From: a virus
IMG/VR virus record: IMGVR_UViG_3300018931_000003
Coordinates: 1 to 46,204 of that record
Direction: 5' to 3' (one strand)
DNA: 46,204 bases
A program made the position numbers and the translations under genes. This document shows positions 2,434 through 46,204 of the stretch, in pieces (positions within the stretch are counted from its first letter, which is position 1; each line of letters begins with the position of its first letter). The notes beneath the pieces are model-generated. The model was given only the letters and a program-made list of their open reading frames with translations. It was not told the origin of the DNA and did no database searches.

Positions 2434-2802
2434 TCAGGACGTGTCGCCGAACCGCTCGGCGACGACGTCCCGCAGGTCCTCGGTGGTCAGGGTGGACAGC
2501 TTGGCGAGGAGGGACTTGCGCTCGCGCTGCTCCTCGGTCAGGATGACGGTGATCGCGCGCGAGCGGTTGGGGTCGCGGGTGATCCGCCCCTTCTTCTGCA
2601 GCGCGGTCAAATGGCAAATGACGCCGTTCGGCGACGTGGTCCCGAACCGCTCATTGATTTCGCGGATCGTGGGACCGTACCCGCGATCCTCGATCTTCTC
2701 CTCGATGAACGACAGGACCTCCCGCTGCGCGTCGGTGAGGCCGTCCGGGCCCGGGGCGGTCGGCTTGCGGCGATTAACGAGCGGTGTGAGCGACGAGCTC
2801 AT
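2434..2802 (-). CDS. LexA-like winged-helix repressor without peptidase
   Basis: A 122-residue protein. Residues 22-85 match the LexA N-terminal domain closely: LTDAQREVLSFIEEKIEDRG, YGPTIREINERFG, TTSPNGVICHLTALQKKG and RITRDPNRSRAI, i.e. three helices and the wing. The catalytic Ser/Lys peptidase domain of LexA and cI-type repressors is absent; instead there is a helical tail. It is the first gene of the leftward operon and lies divergent from the Xre-like gene at 2985, with operator-like palindromes between them, which is the classic position of a phage repressor or early-gene regulator. Induction would need something other than self-cleavage. Confidence 0.85.
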   Translation of the reverse strand: MSSSLTPLVNRRKPTAPGPDGLTDAQREVLSFIEEKIEDRGYGPTIREINERFGTTSPNGVICHLTALQKKGRITRDPNRSRAITVILTEEQRERKSLLAKLSTLTTEDLRDVVAERFGDTS

Positions 2803-8421: not shown

Positions 8422-9450
8422 ATGCCCAAGATCAAACTGAAAGACATCGTCCGCGACCCGCGCCTCCAGTTGCGGGCCAACGGCCTCGACGAGTCGCACG
8501 TCGTCGAGATCATGGAGGCGATGAAGGCCGGCCGCGACGTCGGCAAGGTGCACGCCTGCAAGGACCACCACGGCGTCTACCCGTACGACGGATGGCACCG
8601 CATCGAGGCGGCGTCTCGGCGCGGCGACAAGGAGATCGACGCCGAGGTCGAGCCGGGCGACCTGGACGACGCAGCCCTGAAGGCGGCGGCGGCCAACGCC
8701 GGCCACGGCCTCAAGCGGACCAACGACGACAAGCGGAACGCCGTCCGCGCGATCCTCGACCACCCCGACGCAAAGGACTGGTCCGACCGCAAGATCGCGG
8801 AATACGCTGGGGTTTCTAACAACTTCGTCGCCACCGTTCGATCCGACCAACTGTCATCGGATGACAGTTCAAGCGGCGGCGAAAAGCCAATAACCCGGGT
8901 CGGCCGGGACGGAAAGCGGCGGAAGGTCTCGCCTAGCCAGAGCAAGCCGAAGGCCCCCCAAGGGCCTTCCCAAGCGGCGGCCGGCCCGAAGGACTCCGGG
9001 CCGGCCGCCGCCACGTCGACGGCCGCCGCACACCAGCCCGCCAACGGCAAGGCGACCGACCCGCTCGCCGAGACGGTCGTCATAGAGCCGGGCAACCCGT
9101 TCCCCGCGCAGGCCGACGCGATGAAGGCCGCCGCCCGCAAGCTCTCCTGGCTCGCCGGCGAGGTCGAGGGGATGGTCAAGACCGTCCACGGCTTCGACGG
9201 CGAGGGATACGAGGGGCTCGACGCGGCCCGCGAGAACATCGAGATCGCGCTCGGCAACGTGGCGGGCAGCCTCAAGACGCACGCCGGCACGCTGACCGGA
9301 TCGGCCCCGGCCGGGATCTGCCTCGACTGCGGCGGCGCCGGCTGCCTCTTCTGCAGCCAGCGCCGGTACCAGACCGAGCGGGAGCGCAAGGAGGCCGAGT
9401 CGCGCCGCAAGGCCCGTGGCGGCGCCAAGGCGGGGGCCGCCGCCCGATGA
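8422..9450 (+). CDS. ParB-like N-terminal domain protein with HTH and zinc motif
   Basis: A 342-residue protein. Residues 1-80 resemble the ParB/Srx nucleotide-binding fold (DPRLQLRANGLDESHVVEIM, then VYPYDGWHRIEAASRRGD, the usual GxHRxxA box). Residues 117-140 are an HTH (WSDRKIAEYAGVSNNFVATVR). A long low-complexity Ala/Pro/Lys-rich linker (about 145-225) follows, then a helical region and a CLDCGGAGCLFC zinc motif near the C-terminus. There is no ParA partner, so a partition role is unlikely; phage ParB-like proteins more often are nucleases or transcription regulators. It lies between the Sak4-like and helicase genes and overlaps the helicase gene by 4 bp. Confidence 0.82.
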   Translation: MPKIKLKDIVRDPRLQLRANGLDESHVVEIMEAMKAGRDVGKVHACKDHHGVYPYDGWHRIEAASRRGDKEIDAEVEPGDLDDAALKAAAANAGHGLKRTNDDKRNAVRAILDHPDAKDWSDRKIAEYAGVSNNFVATVRSDQLSSDDSSSGGEKPITRVGRDGKRRKVSPSQSKPKAPQGPSQAAAGPKDSGPAAATSTAAAHQPANGKATDPLAETVVIEPGNPFPAQADAMKAAARKLSWLAGEVEGMVKTVHGFDGEGYEGLDAARENIEIALGNVAGSLKTHAGTLTGSAPAGICLDCGGAGCLFCSQRRYQTERERKEAESRRKARGGAKAGAAAR

Positions 9451-38788: not shown

Positions 38789-39424
38789 TCAGCCATCGGA
38801 CTCCGGCAGTTCCTCGCCGCGAATCTCCCGCGCCGCCTCGCGCATGCACTCGGCAAAGGTCTGGATGTCGATTTCACGGTCCGCGCCATAGCGGTCGGCG
38901 ACGATCAACCGGAAGGCCACGCCGACCGCCAACAGGCGGCGCGCCAGGTCGTCATAGGCCAGCAACTTGTCCGCCCGCATGGGCGACGTGTACTCGACCT
39001 CGACGAACCATACCGTCAGCGCCCCGTCTTCGGCCGTCGTCGCCCAGCCGTCGGGGATGTATCGAAAGGTCGACCGAATCCTGTCCGCGAGATCCTGGGC
39101 GCCGTGAACGCCGGCAATCGCGTCGGGAAGCCCGGCGCGCGGGCGGCGATGCTCCAAGGTCAGGCCGAGGCTGCGGGCGGCGACCTTTGCGGCGGCCCGT
39201 TCTAGGACGCGGCTCGTCTCTTTGGCGATCCGATGCTTCTTGAGGGCGGACCGGCTGTACCGAGCGGCGACCAGGCCGCGGACGTCCGGCGGCGCCTCGA
39301 AGATGGTCAGCCACCGCTGGCGGGCGACGGCTTCATCCTTCCCCAGAAAGACCTGTCGGGACCCGATCTCGACGTACCACCCACGACCTTTCCTCAGCCA
39401 CGGGCCGCGGGAACTTGCAGGCAT
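38789..39424 (-). CDS. Integrase-N-terminus fused to a nuclease-like domain
   Basis: A 211-residue protein divergent from the integrase across attP. Residues 1-38 align with the integrase N-terminus with about 21 identities (MPASSRGPWLRKGRGWYVE against MPRSSKGPWLRTGRGYWVK, then QVFL and DE), i.e. the arm-type DNA-binding domain. The catalytic recombinase domain is absent. Instead residues ~125-190 read IPDGWATTAEDGALTVWFVE, VEYTSPMRADKLLAYDDL, which resembles the PD...ExE...K layout of PD-(D/E)XK-type folds. GGAGAAGG precedes the ATG. It may compete with integrase for arm sites or steer recombination. The domain reading of the C-terminus is inference. Confidence 0.75.
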   Translation of the reverse strand: MPASSRGPWLRKGRGWYVEIGSRQVFLGKDEAVARQRWLTIFEAPPDVRGLVAARYSRSALKKHRIAKETSRVLERAAAKVAARSLGLTLEHRRPRAGLPDAIAGVHGAQDLADRIRSTFRYIPDGWATTAEDGALTVWFVEVEYTSPMRADKLLAYDDLARRLLAVGVAFRLIVADRYGADREIDIQTFAECMREAAREIRGEELPESDG

Positions 39425-39446
39425 CGCCTTCTCCGGTTCAGTGCCA

Positions 39447-39464
39447 TGTCACCGAATGTCACCC
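39447..39464 (+). repeat. Direct repeat, left copy (arm-site candidate)
   Basis: TGTCACCGAATGTCACCC, itself two GTCACC boxes 10 bp apart. It lies about 23 bases upstream of the 38789-39424 gene and 73 bases left of the tRNA-like core. The right copy at 39633-39651 differs by a single base change or insertion here and there. Position on both sides of the core suits integrase arm-type sites. Confidence 0.65.
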
Positions 39465-39536
39465 TTTCGTGCTTTGATTGGGTTTCTTGGACCGAGAAAC
39501 CGCAAAAACACGGCATACGCCAGCGATTCCTCAGGA

Positions 39537-39578
39537 CTCTTAATCATTAGGTTGTCGGTTCGAGCCCGACAGGGGGCA
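39537..39578 (+). other. attP core: 3' half of a tRNA-Lys(CUU) gene
   Basis: The sequence follows tRNA numbering exactly: anticodon loop CTCTTAA (anticodon CTT, 39537-39543), 3' anticodon strand TCATT, variable loop AGGTT, T-stem GTCGG (39554-39558), T-loop TTCGAGC, CCGAC, 3' acceptor strand AGGGGGC and the discriminator A (39578), followed by CTA instead of CCA. The 5' half is absent (upstream bases do not pair), so it is no functional tRNA. Such a fragment next to an integrase gene is the phage attachment site: integration into the host tRNA-Lys gene restores its 3' end. Confidence 0.92.
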
Positions 39579-39632
39579 CTAGGGAAAAGCCTTGCGGAAA
39601 CACTGAAAACGAGGTAGGAAGCCGCCGGTAAG

Positions 39633-39651
39633 TTGCACCGAATTGTCACCC
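39633..39651 (+). repeat. Direct repeat, right copy (arm-site candidate)
   Basis: TTGCACCGAATTGTCACCC, in the same orientation as 39447-39464. It ends one base before the integrase ATG and occupies the place where a Shine-Dalgarno would be; none is visible there. A protein bound here would cover the integrase translation start in DNA, i.e. its promoter-proximal region, so autoregulation of int by integrase or by the 211-residue protein is plausible. Confidence 0.65.
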
Positions 39652-39652
39652 A

Positions 39653-40717
39653 ATGCCGCGATCCTCGAAAGGCCCATGGCTCCGCACTGGGCGAGGGTAC
39701 TGGGTCAAAAGCCACGGAAAACAGGTCTTCCTCGACTTCGACGAACAGGCCGCGAAGACGAAGTGGCACCGGCTGATGGCCGGCCTGCCGCTCGACGACG
39801 ACCCGGGCGTCACGACGTTCGCCGAGGTCGCCGAAGCCTACGTCAGCGAGGTCGAGCGGACGCGGTCGGCGAACCATTTCCTCGCCACGAAGTGGCGGCT
39901 GGACCAGCTCTGCGAGTTTTGGGGCCGCCGGGCCGCCACGTCGCTGACCGCCCGAGACGTCGAGGCGGTCATCCGCCACAAGATGAACCCGCCGCCGCCG
40001 AAGCCCCTGCCGCCCCGCAAGAAGGGCGAGCGCAAGCGGACGCCGCGCAAGCCGAAGCCGTGGGGGCCGACGACCCAGAACGGCGTGCTGACGTCGCTGC
40101 GGGCGTGCCTGCGCTGGGCCTCGCGGCCGGGCGGGCTGATCGACAAGAACCCGCTCCCCTACCTGACGCTCCCCAAGCCGGTCAGCCGGCAGCAGGCGAT
40201 GACGCCGGCGCAGGTGAAGGACCTGCTCAAGGTCGCCGGCCCGGAGCTGCGGTCGATCCTTTGGGCGCTGTCGCAGTGCGGCGCCCGGCCGGGGGAGTTG
40301 GCCCGGGCGAAGGCGGCCGACTGCGACGCCGACGGGTCTGCGATCCGCCTGCCGACCGGCAAGCAGGGGCGGCGGCTCATCCTCTTCCCGAAGGGGGCCA
40401 GGGCGAAGCTCAAGGCGATCAGGAAGGCGGCGGACGGCGGACTGCTGTTCCCCGACCCGTTCGGCAACAGGTGGGCGGAGGCGGAGCTGTCCAAGCAGGT
40501 GCGGAAGGCCAGGGCGGCGGCGAAGCTCCCCGAGTGGGTGACGGCCTACAGCCTCCGGCACACGTGGATCACGGAGCGGCTACGGCAGCGGCACCCGAGG
40601 ATCATTCCGATTGCGGTCGTGGCGAGGATGGCGGGGACGAGCGTGGCGCTCATCGACCGCGTGTATGGTCACCTTGCTGATCAGGACTTGAGGGCCGTTG
40701 CCGATGAGATGGGTTGA
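39653..40717 (+). CDS. int: Tyrosine site-specific integrase
   Basis: A 354-residue tyrosine recombinase. Residues 1-40: arm-binding N-terminus (GPWLRTGRGYWVKSHGKQVF). Residues ~53-170: core-binding domain with a Lys/Pro-rich loop (110-140). Residues 180-354: catalytic domain with Arg212 in CGARPGEL, Lys near TGKQGRRL, Arg302 in YSLRHTW (Tyr where many have His) and nucleophile Tyr338 in IDRVYGHL. It would join attP with the host tRNA-Lys gene. The start is supported by homology with the 38789-39424 protein, though no RBS is visible. Its 3' end overlaps the convergent 40650 gene by 68 bp, so leftward transcription of the early minus operon opposes int. Confidence 0.93.
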   Translation: MPRSSKGPWLRTGRGYWVKSHGKQVFLDFDEQAAKTKWHRLMAGLPLDDDPGVTTFAEVAEAYVSEVERTRSANHFLATKWRLDQLCEFWGRRAATSLTARDVEAVIRHKMNPPPPKPLPPRKKGERKRTPRKPKPWGPTTQNGVLTSLRACLRWASRPGGLIDKNPLPYLTLPKPVSRQQAMTPAQVKDLLKVAGPELRSILWALSQCGARPGELARAKAADCDADGSAIRLPTGKQGRRLILFPKGARAKLKAIRKAADGGLLFPDPFGNRWAEAELSKQVRKARAAAKLPEWVTAYSLRHTWITERLRQRHPRIIPIAVVARMAGTSVALIDRVYGHLADQDLRAVADEMG

Positions 40718-41034: not shown

Positions 41035-41289
41035 TCAAACCCCCTTCGTCATGTGCCTGAACTTCGGCTTCGGCTTCCGGCCCCTCTTCGGCGGCGGGAC
41101 GCGCGTCTGCGCCGCCTTGAACCGCTCGGCCTCCTCGCGGTCGACCTTCCAGCCGCCGAGCCAGCAGGCCTTGAGCCGGCCGGCGTCGATCTCGGCGTAG
41201 ACCCAGTTGACCGAGCACGCCCACTTCGCGGCGAGCTGCTTCGGCGTCAGCACCTCGGCGGCTGGTTGCTGCCTTGCGTCCGCGCTCAT
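41035..41289 (-). CDS. Excisionase-like HTH protein
   Basis: An 84-residue protein with an HTH_17/MerR-like winged helix: LTPKQLAAKWACSVNWVYAE, then IDAGRLKACWLGGWKVDREE and AERF. The C-terminal tail is very basic (PPPKRGRKPKPKFRH). Small proteins of this sort near an integrase often are excisionases, which bend attachment DNA and favour excision. The HTH matches that of the 3459-3680 protein in pattern (LTPKEAAKIVG...), so either could be the excisionase; this one lies nearer attP and is in the lytic-type operon. ATG 41289 overlaps the upstream gene by 4 bp. Confidence 0.75.
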   Translation of the reverse strand: MSADARQQPAAEVLTPKQLAAKWACSVNWVYAEIDAGRLKACWLGGWKVDREEAERFKAAQTRVPPPKRGRKPKPKFRHMTKGV

Positions 41290-41495
41290 CGCCCCACCTC
41301 GACTGTATCCCTGAACACTGGCGGCAGGTCGCCAGCGCACGCCTTGAGGGCCTTGGCGTTCGCGACGAGCGCCGCCGTGAACGTGCTGAGTTCGACGCCC
41401 CGCTGGCGGTCTGTGCTGCCGTCCGGCTTCCGGACCGTCAGGGACCATTCGGCGCCCGTCGGCGTCTCGTTGATGCGGATGTGCAGTCGCTTCAC
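41286..41495 (-). CDS. Small hypothetical protein
   Basis: A 69-residue protein from GTG 41495, which overlaps the previous stop (GTGA) and has AGAGG upstream. KRLHIRINETPTGAEWSLTV is a beta hairpin-like start, followed by a helix (STFTAALVANAKALKACAGD). No family recognised. A longer in-frame start at 41573 lies within the upstream gene and is unlikely. Confidence 0.65.
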   Translation of the reverse strand: MKRLHIRINETPTGAEWSLTVRKPDGSTDRQRGVELSTFTAALVANAKALKACAGDLPPVFRDTVEVGR

Positions 41496-42583: not shown

Positions 42584-43048
42584 TCAGTTGCCCTTCCTTT
42601 CAGACGGCCACTCGAAGCGGTAGGCGTCTGCCTCGTCGAGCAACGCGCCGCGCTCGACGCCGATTGCCGTCATCCCTTGAGAGCGAAGGAACAGGTGCAG
42701 CGGCAGGTTGCCGTCCCAGGCGTCAACTCGCAGGATGCGGCGTTGGATGCCGACCTTGTCCTTGGCCTTATCCATCAGCGCCGTACCCACGCCCGCCCGG
42801 CGGTGCGCCTTGTGGACGCCGAGCCGGAGCAGGTCGATTCGGCGCTTGTGCAGCGAGTAGACCATGTGACCCACCGCGCGGCCATCGACCTCGGCGACCA
42901 TGCCGACGACGTTCGGCTCGCCGAGGTGGTCGCACAAGGCTTGCTCGTCCCACGGGTGGTCGCAGTCCTTCTCCGTCGCCAGCACTTCCGGAAGGTCGCG
43001 GCGGATTACCAAGCGGACATGGACGCCGACGAGCCCCTTGGTCTTCAT
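42584..43048 (-). CDS. GNAT-family N-acetyltransferase (RimI-like)
   Basis: A 154-residue protein with the GNAT fold: strand-helix start (VHVRLVIRRDLPEVLATEKD), the strand GMVAEVDGRAVGHMVYSLHK, then the acetyl-CoA pyrophosphate loop at residues 83-90 (RRAGVGTALM, the R/Q-x-x-G-x-G/A motif), and a closing part DGNLPLHLFLRSQGMTAIGV. The ILRVDAWDGN segment is like that of RimI-type protein N-acetyltransferases. Phage GNATs may modify host proteins, RNA polymerase partners or small molecules; the substrate is not shown. ATGA overlap with the upstream coiled-coil gene. Confidence 0.88.
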   Translation of the reverse strand: MKTKGLVGVHVRLVIRRDLPEVLATEKDCDHPWDEQALCDHLGEPNVVGMVAEVDGRAVGHMVYSLHKRRIDLLRLGVHKAHRRAGVGTALMDKAKDKVGIQRRILRVDAWDGNLPLHLFLRSQGMTAIGVERGALLDEADAYRFEWPSERKGN

Positions 43049-43461
43049 CGCTTCCCGGCCTCCAGCACCGCCTTGGCTCGCTTCACCTGCTTCTGCAGGC
43101 AGTCGCACCACGCCTCCTCGGGGATGCCGTCGCACTGGAGCGATTCGAGTTCGTGGGCGTCGATGATGCGGACCAGCCCGTCCAGTTCCGCCTTCAGCCG
43201 CTCGATCCTCGCCATCAGCCAGTCCATGCGGTCGCCGATCCGGCACCCCTCCGCCCCGTGCGTACCGGGCGGGTGGTGCGGGACGCCGCGGTCGTCGAGG
43301 TACTGGTGGACCCAATCCTTGAACCGCTGGAGTTTGGCGACCTTGGTCTGTAGCTTGGCGATCTCGTCCCGCTGCCGGCGGTCGGCATCCTCGGACTTGC
43401 GCGCGAACTCGGCGAGGCTGGCGTGCGACCAGGAGGAAAAGCGGTTGGGGTCGGGGGTCAT
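43045..43461 (-). CDS. Coiled-coil protein
   Basis: A 138-residue protein with long helices: residues 15-50 (LAEFARKSEDADRRQRDEIA, KLQTKVAKLQRF) and 78-100 (MDWLMARIERLKAELDGLV), both with heptad patterns, separated by a Pro/His-rich turn. C-terminal Cys (WCDCLQKQ) may bind metal. ATGA overlaps on both sides. Role unknown. Confidence 0.7.
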   Translation of the reverse strand: MTPDPNRFSSWSHASLAEFARKSEDADRRQRDEIAKLQTKVAKLQRFKDWVHQYLDDRGVPHHPPGTHGAEGCRIGDRMDWLMARIERLKAELDGLVRIIDAHELESLQCDGIPEEAWCDCLQKQVKRAKAVLEAGKR

Positions 43462-43808
43462 TGGCGGTGCGCCTCCAGCACGTCCTCAATCCGTCCAGGC
43501 GAGTTCCAGTCGACCCGGTCGGCCAGCAGTTCCGCGGTGCTGTAAATGGTGCCGTTCCATTCGAACCAGCGCCGGTTCGTGACGTTCTTCCGCATCCAGT
43601 CGCGGAAGGCTAGTAGGGTTTGAAAGAACGGCTTGCCCGGCCCGTCGGACCTCTCGACCTCGTCGAGCGTGATGTCGTTTGCCTGAATGAAGGCCACCGA
43701 CCGCAGCTTGTCTCGACGGCGAAACAACACCATTCGTCGTTCGATCAGCGGATCGAGCTGGGCCTTGGTCGCCGCGAGTTCCGCTTCAACGGCTTCTAGT
43801 TCGTTCAT
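43458..43808 (-). CDS. Hypothetical protein with N-terminal coiled coil
   Basis: A 116-residue protein. Residues 1-36 form a coiled coil (LEAVEAELAATKAQLDPLIE), followed by a mixed domain with FFQTLLAFRDWMRKNVTNRR and the strand WFEWNGTIYSTAELLA. No family recognised. It starts seven bases after the MazG-like gene and is coupled to the next coiled-coil gene by ATGA, so the two coiled-coil proteins may form a complex. Confidence 0.7.
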   Translation of the reverse strand: MNELEAVEAELAATKAQLDPLIERRMVLFRRRDKLRSVAFIQANDITLDEVERSDGPGKPFFQTLLAFRDWMRKNVTNRRWFEWNGTIYSTAELLADRVDWNSPGRIEDVLEAHRQ

Positions 43809-43815
43809 GGTCCCC

Positions 43816-44295
43816 TCACGCCTGCGGCGCTACCCGCTCGTCCACGATCCCTGCCGCGGCCTTCCGCCCGTCCGGCCCGAACCCGTTCGCCTCGAGCAGC
43901 CAACGCTCCCGACCGTCGAGGTCCCCGCCCGCCCTTGCCTTGGCGGCGATCGCCAGGAGTGTGTCGAAGTCGACGTCGTTGACGTAGGCGGGGGCTGGCT
44001 CGGGTTCCTCCTCCGTCAGGCCGTCCATCACCAGGCCGGCCGCTGGCCCGTCGTCGACCGACTCAGGCTCGCGCTGCTCCTCGATCTCCTGGCGGAGGTA
44101 GACGCAGAGGTCGAGCGCCTCCTGGTAGGCATCGACCAGGGCGCGCCGCCCGTTGTGCGTCCGCAGCGGCGTGCCGTACTTGCGCGTCCCGGCCTCCCGC
44201 CTCGCGGCGAGGTCGGCGATCACCAGGGCGGTCACGTCGGCGCCGTCCCCGGTCGGGGCGGGCTGCGGCGTCGCGGCGAACGAATCGAGCGTCAT
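43816..44295 (-). CDS. MazG-like/phage dNTP-pyrophosphohydrolase-like protein
   Basis: A 159-residue protein. Residues 22-75 (TALVIADLAARREAGTRKYG, TPLRTHNGRRALVDAYQEAL, DLCVYLRQEIEE) follow a pattern found in phage MazG-like proteins, where the KYG and EALD residues bind nucleotide and Mg2+. These all-alpha enzymes hydrolyse (d)NTPs to monophosphates, which adjusts nucleotide pools or cleans up damaged nucleotides. The C-terminal half is acidic with a helical ending (NDVDFDTLLAIAAKARAGGD, then WLLEANGFGPDGRKAAAGIV). Only part of the usual motif set is visible, so a non-catalytic form is possible. ATG 44295 overlaps the methylase stop. Confidence 0.72.
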   Translation of the reverse strand: MTLDSFAATPQPAPTGDGADVTALVIADLAARREAGTRKYGTPLRTHNGRRALVDAYQEALDLCVYLRQEIEEQREPESVDDGPAAGLVMDGLTEEEPEPAPAYVNDVDFDTLLAIAAKARAGGDLDGRERWLLEANGFGPDGRKAAAGIVDERVAPQA

Positions 44296-45176
44296 TGAAA
44301 CAGTCCCTCCCCTGCCGGCGCGGTGTAGCTCTCGCCGTTTATGATCAAGACCTCGGGTGCCTGGACCGCCCCGCCCTTCCCCCTCTGCCCGGCCGAGACC
44401 ATGGCCTTGGTCGTTGCGCACTCGACGAAGCTCCAGCCGGCGTAAAGCCGCCGGGCGTCCGGGTGGTCGTAGTAGCTGACGACGATCCGCGCGTTCCGGA
44501 ACCTTCTCAACGCCTCGGCGAGGCGGGCGTGGTCCTCGGCCGCGAAGTCGTGCAGGTACTTCGACCCTTTGACGAAGTACGGCGGGTCGGCGTAGATCGC
44601 GGTCGTCGGCTGGTCGTCGATCCGCTCCAGGACGTTGAACGTGTCCTCGTTCAGGATGATGACGTTCCGCAGCCGCCGCCGCCACGCCGGGATCGAGTCG
44701 ACCGCCGAGGCGAGGCGCTTCGCCGGCGAGCCGCCGTTCGCCGTGTACCGCACGCAGAAGTGGTTCCCGCTGTTGCTGCCGACCGTCCCGTTGCGGCCGA
44801 TCCAACTGAAGAGGAAGAACTCGACCGCCCGGCCGACGTCGGGCGACGCCGGGGCCGGCTCTCGCTCGCGGCCGTCGCACGCCGGCTTGACGTCGAGGAA
44901 CTGCTCCTGGGAGCAGAGCAGCCGCCGGCAGCGACGGTAGAACTGGGCGCCGAGCGACGGGTGCTGGATGACGCGGGCCATGTTCACCAGGTCGCCGTGC
45001 AGGTCGCAGACGATCTCCATCGGAGCGGGCGGCTTGGCGATCAGCGTCGCCATGCTGGCGCAGAAGGCTTCGAAGTAGAGGTTGTGCGGGCCGAGCTCGG
45101 CGACGATGCGCGGCGCGAGGGTGCGCTTCGAGCCGAACCACGGCGACAACGCGGTAACTGGGGCGGCGGCCGTCAT
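44292..45176 (-). CDS. DNA adenine N6-methyltransferase (Dam/D12 class)
   Basis: A 294-residue D12-class methyltransferase. Motif X/I at residues 12-22 (PWFGSKRTLAP, the PFxGxK box that binds S-adenosylmethionine), acidic motif (VCDLHGDLVNM) at 56-66, and the catalytic DPPY at 197-200 (IYADPPYFVKG). It methylates adenine in a short site to protect phage DNA from restriction or mark it for control. No cognate restriction gene lies nearby, so it is an orphan methylase. A Ser/Asn-rich loop NGTVGSNSGNHF replaces the usual RxN segment of Dam. ATGA overlaps on both sides. Confidence 0.92.
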   Translation of the reverse strand: MTAAAPVTALSPWFGSKRTLAPRIVAELGPHNLYFEAFCASMATLIAKPPAPMEIVCDLHGDLVNMARVIQHPSLGAQFYRRCRRLLCSQEQFLDVKPACDGREREPAPASPDVGRAVEFFLFSWIGRNGTVGSNSGNHFCVRYTANGGSPAKRLASAVDSIPAWRRRLRNVIILNEDTFNVLERIDDQPTTAIYADPPYFVKGSKYLHDFAAEDHARLAEALRRFRNARIVVSYYDHPDARRLYAGWSFVECATTKAMVSAGQRGKGGAVQAPEVLIINGESYTAPAGEGLFQ

Positions 45177-46126
45177 GCCCGCACCTTCGGGAACTCATCC
45201 CAGATCTTGCCGTCGAGCGTTCGCCCTGCCTTCGCCTTGCCGACGTAGTAGCTGACGCCGGCTTCACCCCAGCCGTGGATTTCTTCCGTCGTCCTAGTCC
45301 ACCCCTCGGGGGTTTGGCGGAAAGGAATCCACTCGCCCCACTGCTTGAACAGGTACGGGACGCCTGCGGCCTCGCACTGGTCGCGGAGCTTTCTCGCCCA
45401 CCCCGGATGCATCGGCCGGGCCTGGTGGCCGCTCTCCCCGCCCGCGATGACCCACCCGAGCTTCCGGCCCGCCCGCGTGACCGGGCACCGTGGGCGATGT
45501 TCATCTCCGCGGCTGATGGAATCGATCGTGCACCCGTCGCAATAGAGGAACGGGTCGAGGTCGACCGGCCCGAGCAGCGGCTCGCAGGACAGGAACCGGA
45601 CGACGGCCGGCACGTTGAACAAGTGCGGGATGCGCTCGTCGGCCGCCTCTTGGTTCTCGACGGACGTGCCAAGCCAGACGTTCGGCGGGGACCACGATTC
45701 ACCCGTCACCGGATCGATCCACCACATGCGAGCGGCGTTCTCAGGCCGCTTCGTCAACAGCAACCAGTCGAGTTGTCGGGTGTCCTCGATGAGGCGGAAG
45801 AGCCGTTCACGGGCACGCTGCACGACCGGCCACGAGTCTGCCGGCATCGTCTCCGGCCCCTCGAACACGTCGGCTAGCGACGCGCAAAAGACGCGCCGCC
45901 GCTCCCCCGCCGCCATCGCCGCCGCGTTCCACTTGAGCGGTTCGCGCCAATAGCCCTCCGCGGCGACGACTCGGGCCCCTTGCGGACCCCACACGCCGAG
46001 CGACCGCGGGTTCCGCTTGCTCAACATTTCCGCATAGCAGTGGGCGCAGCCGGCGCTGACCTTCGTGCAGCCGCGCCACGGGTTGAACGTGTGGTGCGTC
46101 CATTCGATCTTGCTGTTCTCAGCCAT
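45173..46126 (-). CDS. DUF5131 (phage Gp37/Gp68) family protein
   Basis: A 317-residue protein of the Gp37/Gp68 family. The N-terminus has a radical-SAM-like Cys cluster, C20-x6-C27-x2-C30 (GCTKVSAGCAHCYAE), and the characteristic segments SKIEWTHHTFNPWRGC, VFCASLADVFEG, WLLLTKRPEN and WVIAGGESGHQARPM. Radical-SAM relatives use an iron-sulphur cluster, but here the spacing is CX6CX2C and the activity is unknown. The family is common in phages and mobile DNA of varied bacteria. The ATG lies within the terminal repeat, so its first 21 bases are duplicated at 1-21 of the window. Confidence 0.92.
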   Translation of the reverse strand: MAENSKIEWTHHTFNPWRGCTKVSAGCAHCYAEMLSKRNPRSLGVWGPQGARVVAAEGYWREPLKWNAAAMAAGERRRVFCASLADVFEGPETMPADSWPVVQRARERLFRLIEDTRQLDWLLLTKRPENAARMWWIDPVTGESWSPPNVWLGTSVENQEAADERIPHLFNVPAVVRFLSCEPLLGPVDLDPFLYCDGCTIDSISRGDEHRPRCPVTRAGRKLGWVIAGGESGHQARPMHPGWARKLRDQCEAAGVPYLFKQWGEWIPFRQTPEGWTRTTEEIHGWGEAGVSYYVGKAKAGRTLDGKIWDEFPKVRA

Positions 46127-46204
46127 GTCGCCCCGCCCTCTCCCTGATCGTCGCCGTCACCCGATCTCCCGCCCGCTTGACCGCCCTTGCGTTCTCATGC
46201 GTCG
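46106..46204. repeat. Terminal direct repeat, right copy (circular join)
   Basis: Identical over 99 bases to positions 1-99. It contains the start of the DUF5131 gene (46106-46126) and a cut copy of the small gene that is complete at 14-160. See the left copy for interpretation. Confidence 0.97.

Follow-up and report, generated by a model that had tools for sequence, protein, structure and literature searches.

An orphan phage protein that shares the arm-binding domain of the integrase encoded on the opposite side of attP

Analysis of the virus record IMGVR_UViG_3300018931_000003 revealed a gene for a 211-aa protein which shares the arm-binding domain of the phage integrase, a relationship that is well supported, and which continues into an unrelated C-terminal part. 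The gene and the integrase gene (int) are divergent and flank attP. We propose, regarding the case for and against as about evenly balanced, that the 211-aa protein serves the integrase as a recombinase-free partner, which would bind the same arm repeats, restrain recombination and lower the expression of both int and its own gene.

The record (46,204 bases) was analyzed over its whole length, referred to here as the window. Its 99-base direct terminal repeat (positions 1-99 and 46106-46204) and recognizable genes for terminase, major head protein, tape measure protein, helicase and methyltransferase suggest that it represents a complete temperate tailed phage genome, circular or terminally redundant in form. 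The features of the att region and of the neighboring genes are as follows:

38789-39424, minus strand: 211-aa orphan protein, integrase-type arm-binding domain (residues 1-46) and unrelated C-terminal part (residues ~50-211)
39287-39424, minus strand: codons 1-46, arm-binding domain common to the 211-aa protein and the integrase (BLASTP, AlphaFold2)
38792-39163, minus strand: residues 88-211, domain with P124-D125 ... E142-V-E144 ... K153 (low-confidence model)
39447-39463, plus strand: putative left (P) arm pair, TGTCACC-GAA-TGTCACC with a spacing of 10; distance to the 211-aa start codon, 23 bp
39481-39501: inverted repeat of 10 bp, near-perfect (GGTTTCTTGG/CCGAGAAACC), located between the left arm and the core; possibly an operator or bend site
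39535-39579, plus strand: attP core, 3' half of tRNA-Lys(CTT)
39633-39650, plus strand: putative right (P') arm pair, TTGCACC-GAAT-TGTCACC with a spacing of 11; the start codon of the integrase follows 2 bp after its end
39653-40717, plus strand: tyrosine integrase (354 aa) with arm-binding domain (phrog_1, PF00589)
41035-41448, minus strand: candidate excisionase, HTH_17 protein of 137 aa (HTH_17, phrog_66, phrog_1840)

Several further genes were recorded in the window. A stand-alone protein with a LexA-type DNA-binding domain (2434-2802, minus strand; PF01726, E 9e-24), lacking the peptidase domain, is a candidate phage repressor. Next to its gene lie those encoding a CsrA-domain protein (1367-1792) and, at 732-1370, a sigma-factor-like protein. 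Towards the other end of the record, the 3' part of an ORF at 42584-43489 (minus strand) encodes a GNAT acetyltransferase domain, and genes for a D12-class adenine methyltransferase and a DUF5131 protein lie side by side at 44292-46126 (minus strand).

The 211-aa gene and its N-terminal domain

Both divergent genes were confirmed (38789-39424, minus strand; 39653-40717, plus strand). The GC content of the 211-aa gene by codon position (0.70/0.52/0.84) is typical of a coding frame, and a plausible ribosome binding site, CCGGAGAAGG, precedes its ATG codon. Comparison of the two proteins by BLASTP showed that residues 1-46 align without a gap, with 22 identical and 30 similar residues (E 4e-12), and that no meaningful alignment is obtained beyond residue 46. 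When the 46 residues were shuffled 100,000 times, the number of identities never exceeded 12 (mean 3). The first-pass annotation, made from the sequence alone, had reported about 21 ungapped identities within the first ~38 residues and a complete difference between the remaining parts of the proteins; both observations were confirmed, the former in a slightly extended form.

The DNA of the 46 shared codons is 51% identical, compared with 48% identity of the encoded residues, and identity at third codon positions (17/46) is at the level of chance (15.4 expected from composition). Saturation of third positions together with the persisting protein similarity indicates an old duplication in which the protein is what has been kept, and shows long constraint at the protein level. 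Identity is unevenly distributed: 6/8 residues match in the N-terminal tail and 11/20 in the region of the strands, compared with 5/18 in that of the helix. The DNA contact pattern of the Tn916 and lambda arm-binding domains offers a basis for comparison; by this analogy, the highest identity in the tail and strands is as expected if DNA contact has been kept.

Structure prediction with AlphaFold2 from the single sequence placed strands at residues 9-12, 15-20 and 23-28 of the 211-aa protein and a helix at residues 31-43; this block was modeled with fair confidence (pLDDT ~62-82), and most of the remainder of the protein scored below 50. Residues 9-43 thus show the order of three strands followed by one helix that is found in the arm-binding (AB) domains of integrases (PMC8138268), and similarity to such a domain is provided by the neighboring integrase itself. 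The assignment, which the first-pass annotation had also made, rests on the N-terminal place of the shared domain in an AB-type tyrosine recombinase, on this strand/helix order and on the relative at a second locus described below. Searches of Pfam, NCBIfam and PHROGs gave no integrase match for the 211-aa protein that would point to the R-K-H-R-H-Y catalytic domain of a tyrosine recombinase.

The same data bear on the view that the gene is a relic or a neutral fusion, according to which illegitimate recombination near attP fused the beginning of int, copied in inverted orientation, to an unrelated gene, and the resulting protein now recognizes other DNA or does nothing at att. Its occurrence in a single genome, with no relatives found, would agree with this, as would the low codon adaptation of the gene (0.48, where core genes reach 0.69-0.84 and the excisionase-like gene has 0.44), a value that also fits a recently gained accessory gene. 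However, third positions are saturated while 48% of the residues persist, the 211 codons are free of stops or frame breaks, and the start is intact and preceded by the plausible ribosome binding site. An old fusion kept in use is therefore indicated rather than a fresh accident, and we regard the relic as improbable.

The attachment site and a related integrase locus

The core (39535-39579) has matches among the annotated tRNA-Lys genes of phages, and joining it to the 5' half of one of these, from a Gordonia phage, gave a hybrid that ARAGORN called as tRNA-Lys(ctt). No Rfam match was obtained for the att region, since half a tRNA is too short, and the exact 42-base core was absent from the scanned species genomes and IMG/VR. 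The repeat pairs are located 72 bp to the left and 54 bp to the right of the core, in one orientation, with the copies within a pair one helix turn apart. In the 46-kb genome TGTCACC occurs three times, always at the att region and in the same orientation. The paired pattern T[GT][GT]CACC-N3/4-TGTCACC has just two occurrences, at 39447 and 39633, and none of 200 random sequences matched for dinucleotide make-up contained it.

A looser pattern for the integrase-type N-terminus, run against IMG/VR, yielded one locus (L089; IMGVR_UViG_3300010885_029793, 14.8 kb). The window integrase, which matches phrog_1 (integrase) from residue 10 on (E 2e-40) and PF00589 above the cut-off, is homologous to the L089 integrase over its full length (26% identity, E 2e-22), and the N-terminal domain of the latter aligns with both window copies. 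In the window integrase the histidine normally present in the GH motif is missing (40597-40717; AGTS, compared to AGHSS in L089), and in both integrases Y replaces the first H of HxxR.

The att region of L089 contains four direct copies of GGGCAGGGAAT in one orientation, at positions 8506, 8518, 8759 and 8772 (spacings 12 and 13), and this 11-mer occurs nowhere else in the locus. Two copies lie on each side of a tRNA-like 3' end, which was judged by eye (~8680-8708). The right pair ends about 17-18 bp before int, compared to 2 bp in the window, and in both cases 23 bp separate the left pair from the start codon of the divergent gene (39447 and 39424 in the window; 8506 and 8483 in L089). Since the integrases are related and the layout is the same while the repeats differ, the repeats are what one would expect of arm sites that the arm-binding domain recognizes. 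The first-pass annotation had placed the core between the two divergent genes, which the tRNA-Lys matches support, and had taken the repeats at 39447 and 39633 as arm sites, which is supported by the comparison with L089. Residues G7, L10, G13, G15 and F26 (211-aa protein numbering) are common to the 211-aa protein and the window integrase and are missing in the L089 integrase, which fits the reading of the same repeats by both window proteins.

The divergent gene of L089 (7734-8483, minus strand) encodes a NUDIX-domain protein (PF00293 above the cut-off) without an arm-binding domain. Because of this, and because no relative of the 211-aa protein is present in that record, the position divergent from int is not reserved for a regulator of integration.

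The second gene past int (41035-41448), which runs on the opposite strand, encodes a protein with an HTH_17 domain above the cut-off and with similarity to phrog_66 "excisionase and transcriptional regulator" (E 1.6e-7) and phrog_1840 excisionase (E 0.005). From these matches, it is a likely directionality factor. Its presence weakens the earlier suggestion that the 211-aa protein directs excision, which it might do by binding one arm and steering the integrase. Shared arm reading through the N-terminal domain and the location of the gene beside attP would favor such a role. However, the 211-aa protein showed no excisionase-family or excisionase-type helix-turn-helix match in Pfam, PHROGs or NCBIfam, and the L089 relative does without such a protein. 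Directionality factors known to us use other domains, of the winged or other helix-turn-helix type. A phage with a likely excisionase needs no second directionality factor, although both proteins could take part. As a first choice this role was rejected in view of the separate candidate near int, and we consider it very unlikely.

The C-terminal half and the search for relatives

The C-terminal half had been described as a PD...ExE...K nuclease-like domain. The letters are present (D125, E142-x-E144, K153); set against the catalytic D...(D/E)-x-K of PD-(D/E)XK enzymes, they have Glu in place of the usual Lys. BamHI is a known case of E-x-E. The model of residues 88-211 showed the order alpha-beta-beta-alpha-beta-beta-alpha at low confidence (mean pLDDT 53.8, pTM 0.48). 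No nuclease or other match for the C-terminal part was found in Pfam, PHROGs, NCBIfam, PADLOC, PDB sequences or by Foldseek. The weak similarity to GhoS (Pfam E 0.047; PDB 2llz E 1) was below the cut-off and was rejected. Foldseek returned no match with E <0.001 for either of two models, as expected from their poor quality (mean pLDDT 47 and 54), and with such models the fold test is too weak for excluding a PD-(D/E)XK nuclease. The C-terminal half alone gave only tblastn matches at E ~5 to 6, and of the four loci obtained in a scan with the motif pattern none (0/4) had the motif in a fitting frame. Thus, the letters of the earlier description stand and its nuclease assignment is a motif-level guess, found without a family, PDB or fold match; the domain may be a nuclease, serve dimerization or have another role.

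If it is a nuclease, the 211-aa protein could be an accessory enzyme directed to DNA by its arm-binding domain, comparable in this to HNH homing endonucleases with an AP2 domain, which would attack other phages or promote its own spread. The presence and order of the motif letters and the helix-strand-strand-helix-strand order of the low-confidence model would be compatible with this. AP2 domains belong to Pfam clan CL0081. The arm-binding families are placed in the same clan (PMC8138268), so that arm-binding and AP2-like domains are grouped together, and the joining of HNH and AP2 domains in nucleases is a known phage combination (PMC10448857). The gene moreover occupies the slot in which L089 has another accessory gene, and its codon adaptation is low. 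On the other hand, profile, PDB and fold searches gave no match, and the phage itself carries the arm sites; cutting there would need protection, and none is evident. The protein is not itself an HNH-AP2 homing endonuclease, in which an N-terminal HNH precedes a C-terminal AP2: it had no HNH or AP2 match and its arm-type domain is N-terminal, unlike AP2. An accessory nuclease appears rather unlikely, somewhat less so than a relic.

No relatives of the 211-aa protein were found in IMG/VR, GTDB species genomes, phage records and plasmids, or in L089 and 41 viral records holding terminase relatives; the two collection scans require exact 8-residue words and hence reach close relatives only. A degenerate scan for the shared domain gave no confirmed match, and a DNA pattern matching both window copies of the domain had no hit in IMG/VR. 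The protein thus occurs in one genome only, according to searches reaching mainly close relatives. The first-pass annotation had counted a lack of homologues beside integrases against its own reading, and so far none has been found there within the limited reach of these searches. No protein of this make-up was described in the literature searched (open-licence papers).

A putative arm-site competitor and known integration systems

According to the preferred reading, the diverged copy of the integrase arm-binding domain would bind TGTCACC-type direct repeats, paired at one helix turn, on both sides of the tRNA-Lys core. By occupying the arms, the 211-aa protein would exclude the integrase and lower its occupancy there. 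The idea of a second protein that reads the same sites and could block the integrase had been put forward in the first-pass annotation; as reasoning from the shared domain and the arm layout it is sound, with the binding itself predicted from these features. Because each gene has an arm pair just before its start, binding would also lower expression of both: transcription or translation start of int through the right pair, and of the 211-aa gene itself through the left pair. Chiefly, this would hold recombination in check and set the amounts of the two proteins.

On circular phage DNA the two genes would point outwards from attP, with an arm pair ahead of each start. From this arrangement it follows that integration would separate them to opposite prophage ends, with int and the right pair at attL and the 211-aa gene and the left pair at attR. 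The former would thereby come to lie at the prophage junction next to the restored tRNA.

Integrase genes beside tRNAs, with a promoter overlapping att, are often negatively autoregulated by the integrase, as is KplE1 intS (PMC2951348). IntS and TorI of KplE1 provide a known case of autoregulation through arm binders, which has been predicted for most tRNA-associated integrase genes (PMC2951348). The KplE1 system resembles the one described here in its tRNA-associated integrase, in the overlap of the upstream region with att arm sites and in the capacity of arm binders to repress int; it differs in that the integrase and the excisionase TorI are the regulators, whereas in the window they would be joined by a third protein, which carries the arm domain of the integrase itself. 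Compared to the arm-binding domains of tyrosine integrases of the Tn916, lambda and BPP-1 types, the domain of the 211-aa protein is likewise N-terminal, with ~45 residues, three strands and one helix, and a further common feature is the arm sites, which are paired direct repeats next to a tRNA core (PMC8138268); unlike in these enzymes, no core-binding or catalytic recombinase domain follows. The closest module is that of L089, with a homologous integrase, paired arm repeats flanking a tRNA-like core and a divergent gene that starts 23 bp away from the left arm repeats; it is distinguished by its repeat sequence and by the NUDIX protein.

Apl of phage 186 is a separate helix-turn-helix type protein, and is not built from the arm domain of the integrase. 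Like P2 Cox, it exemplifies an att-binding protein that can also regulate transcription, with direct repeats one helix turn apart (PMC7498355). One-turn direct repeats at att are also a type of excisionase site, 186 Apl binding repeats 10-11 bp apart (PMC7498355), and by this analogy the repeats in the window could belong partly to the excisionase, which counts against the arm competitor. Arm sites appear to suit them better, because the repeats flank the core on both sides and recur as two pairs in L089. The competitor is further opposed by its occurrence in one genome with no relative found, by the low codon adaptation of its gene, and by the L089 NUDIX gene, which indicates that the slot needs no regulator.

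DNA-binding domains are known to be shuffled among phage nucleases, regulators and integrase-like proteins, as exemplified by HNH-AP2 homing endonucleases and by the repressor CapR, which is derived from the DNA-binding domain of a nuclease (PMC10448857). These differ from the 211-aa protein in nuclease class and in their reversed domain order, and show no sequence match to it. A new kind of integration control, in which an arm competitor made from the integrase arm-binding domain and a nuclease-fold or other effector controls or protects attachment sites, is a tentative and rather doubtful possibility, though slightly better placed than the accessory nuclease; the caution stems from the single example and the lack of relatives found.

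Phage integration is held to be governed by the integrase, the excisionase and host bending proteins. If the proposed role is true, a recombinase-free protein carrying the integrase's arm-reading domain and encoded on the far side of attP would add another control element to these, one that is directly testable because its predicted binding sites are short and exact. The comparison with L089 shows an integrase lineage that keeps the arm layout and changes the arm sequence, which offers a natural specificity pair for DNA reading by arm-binding domains.
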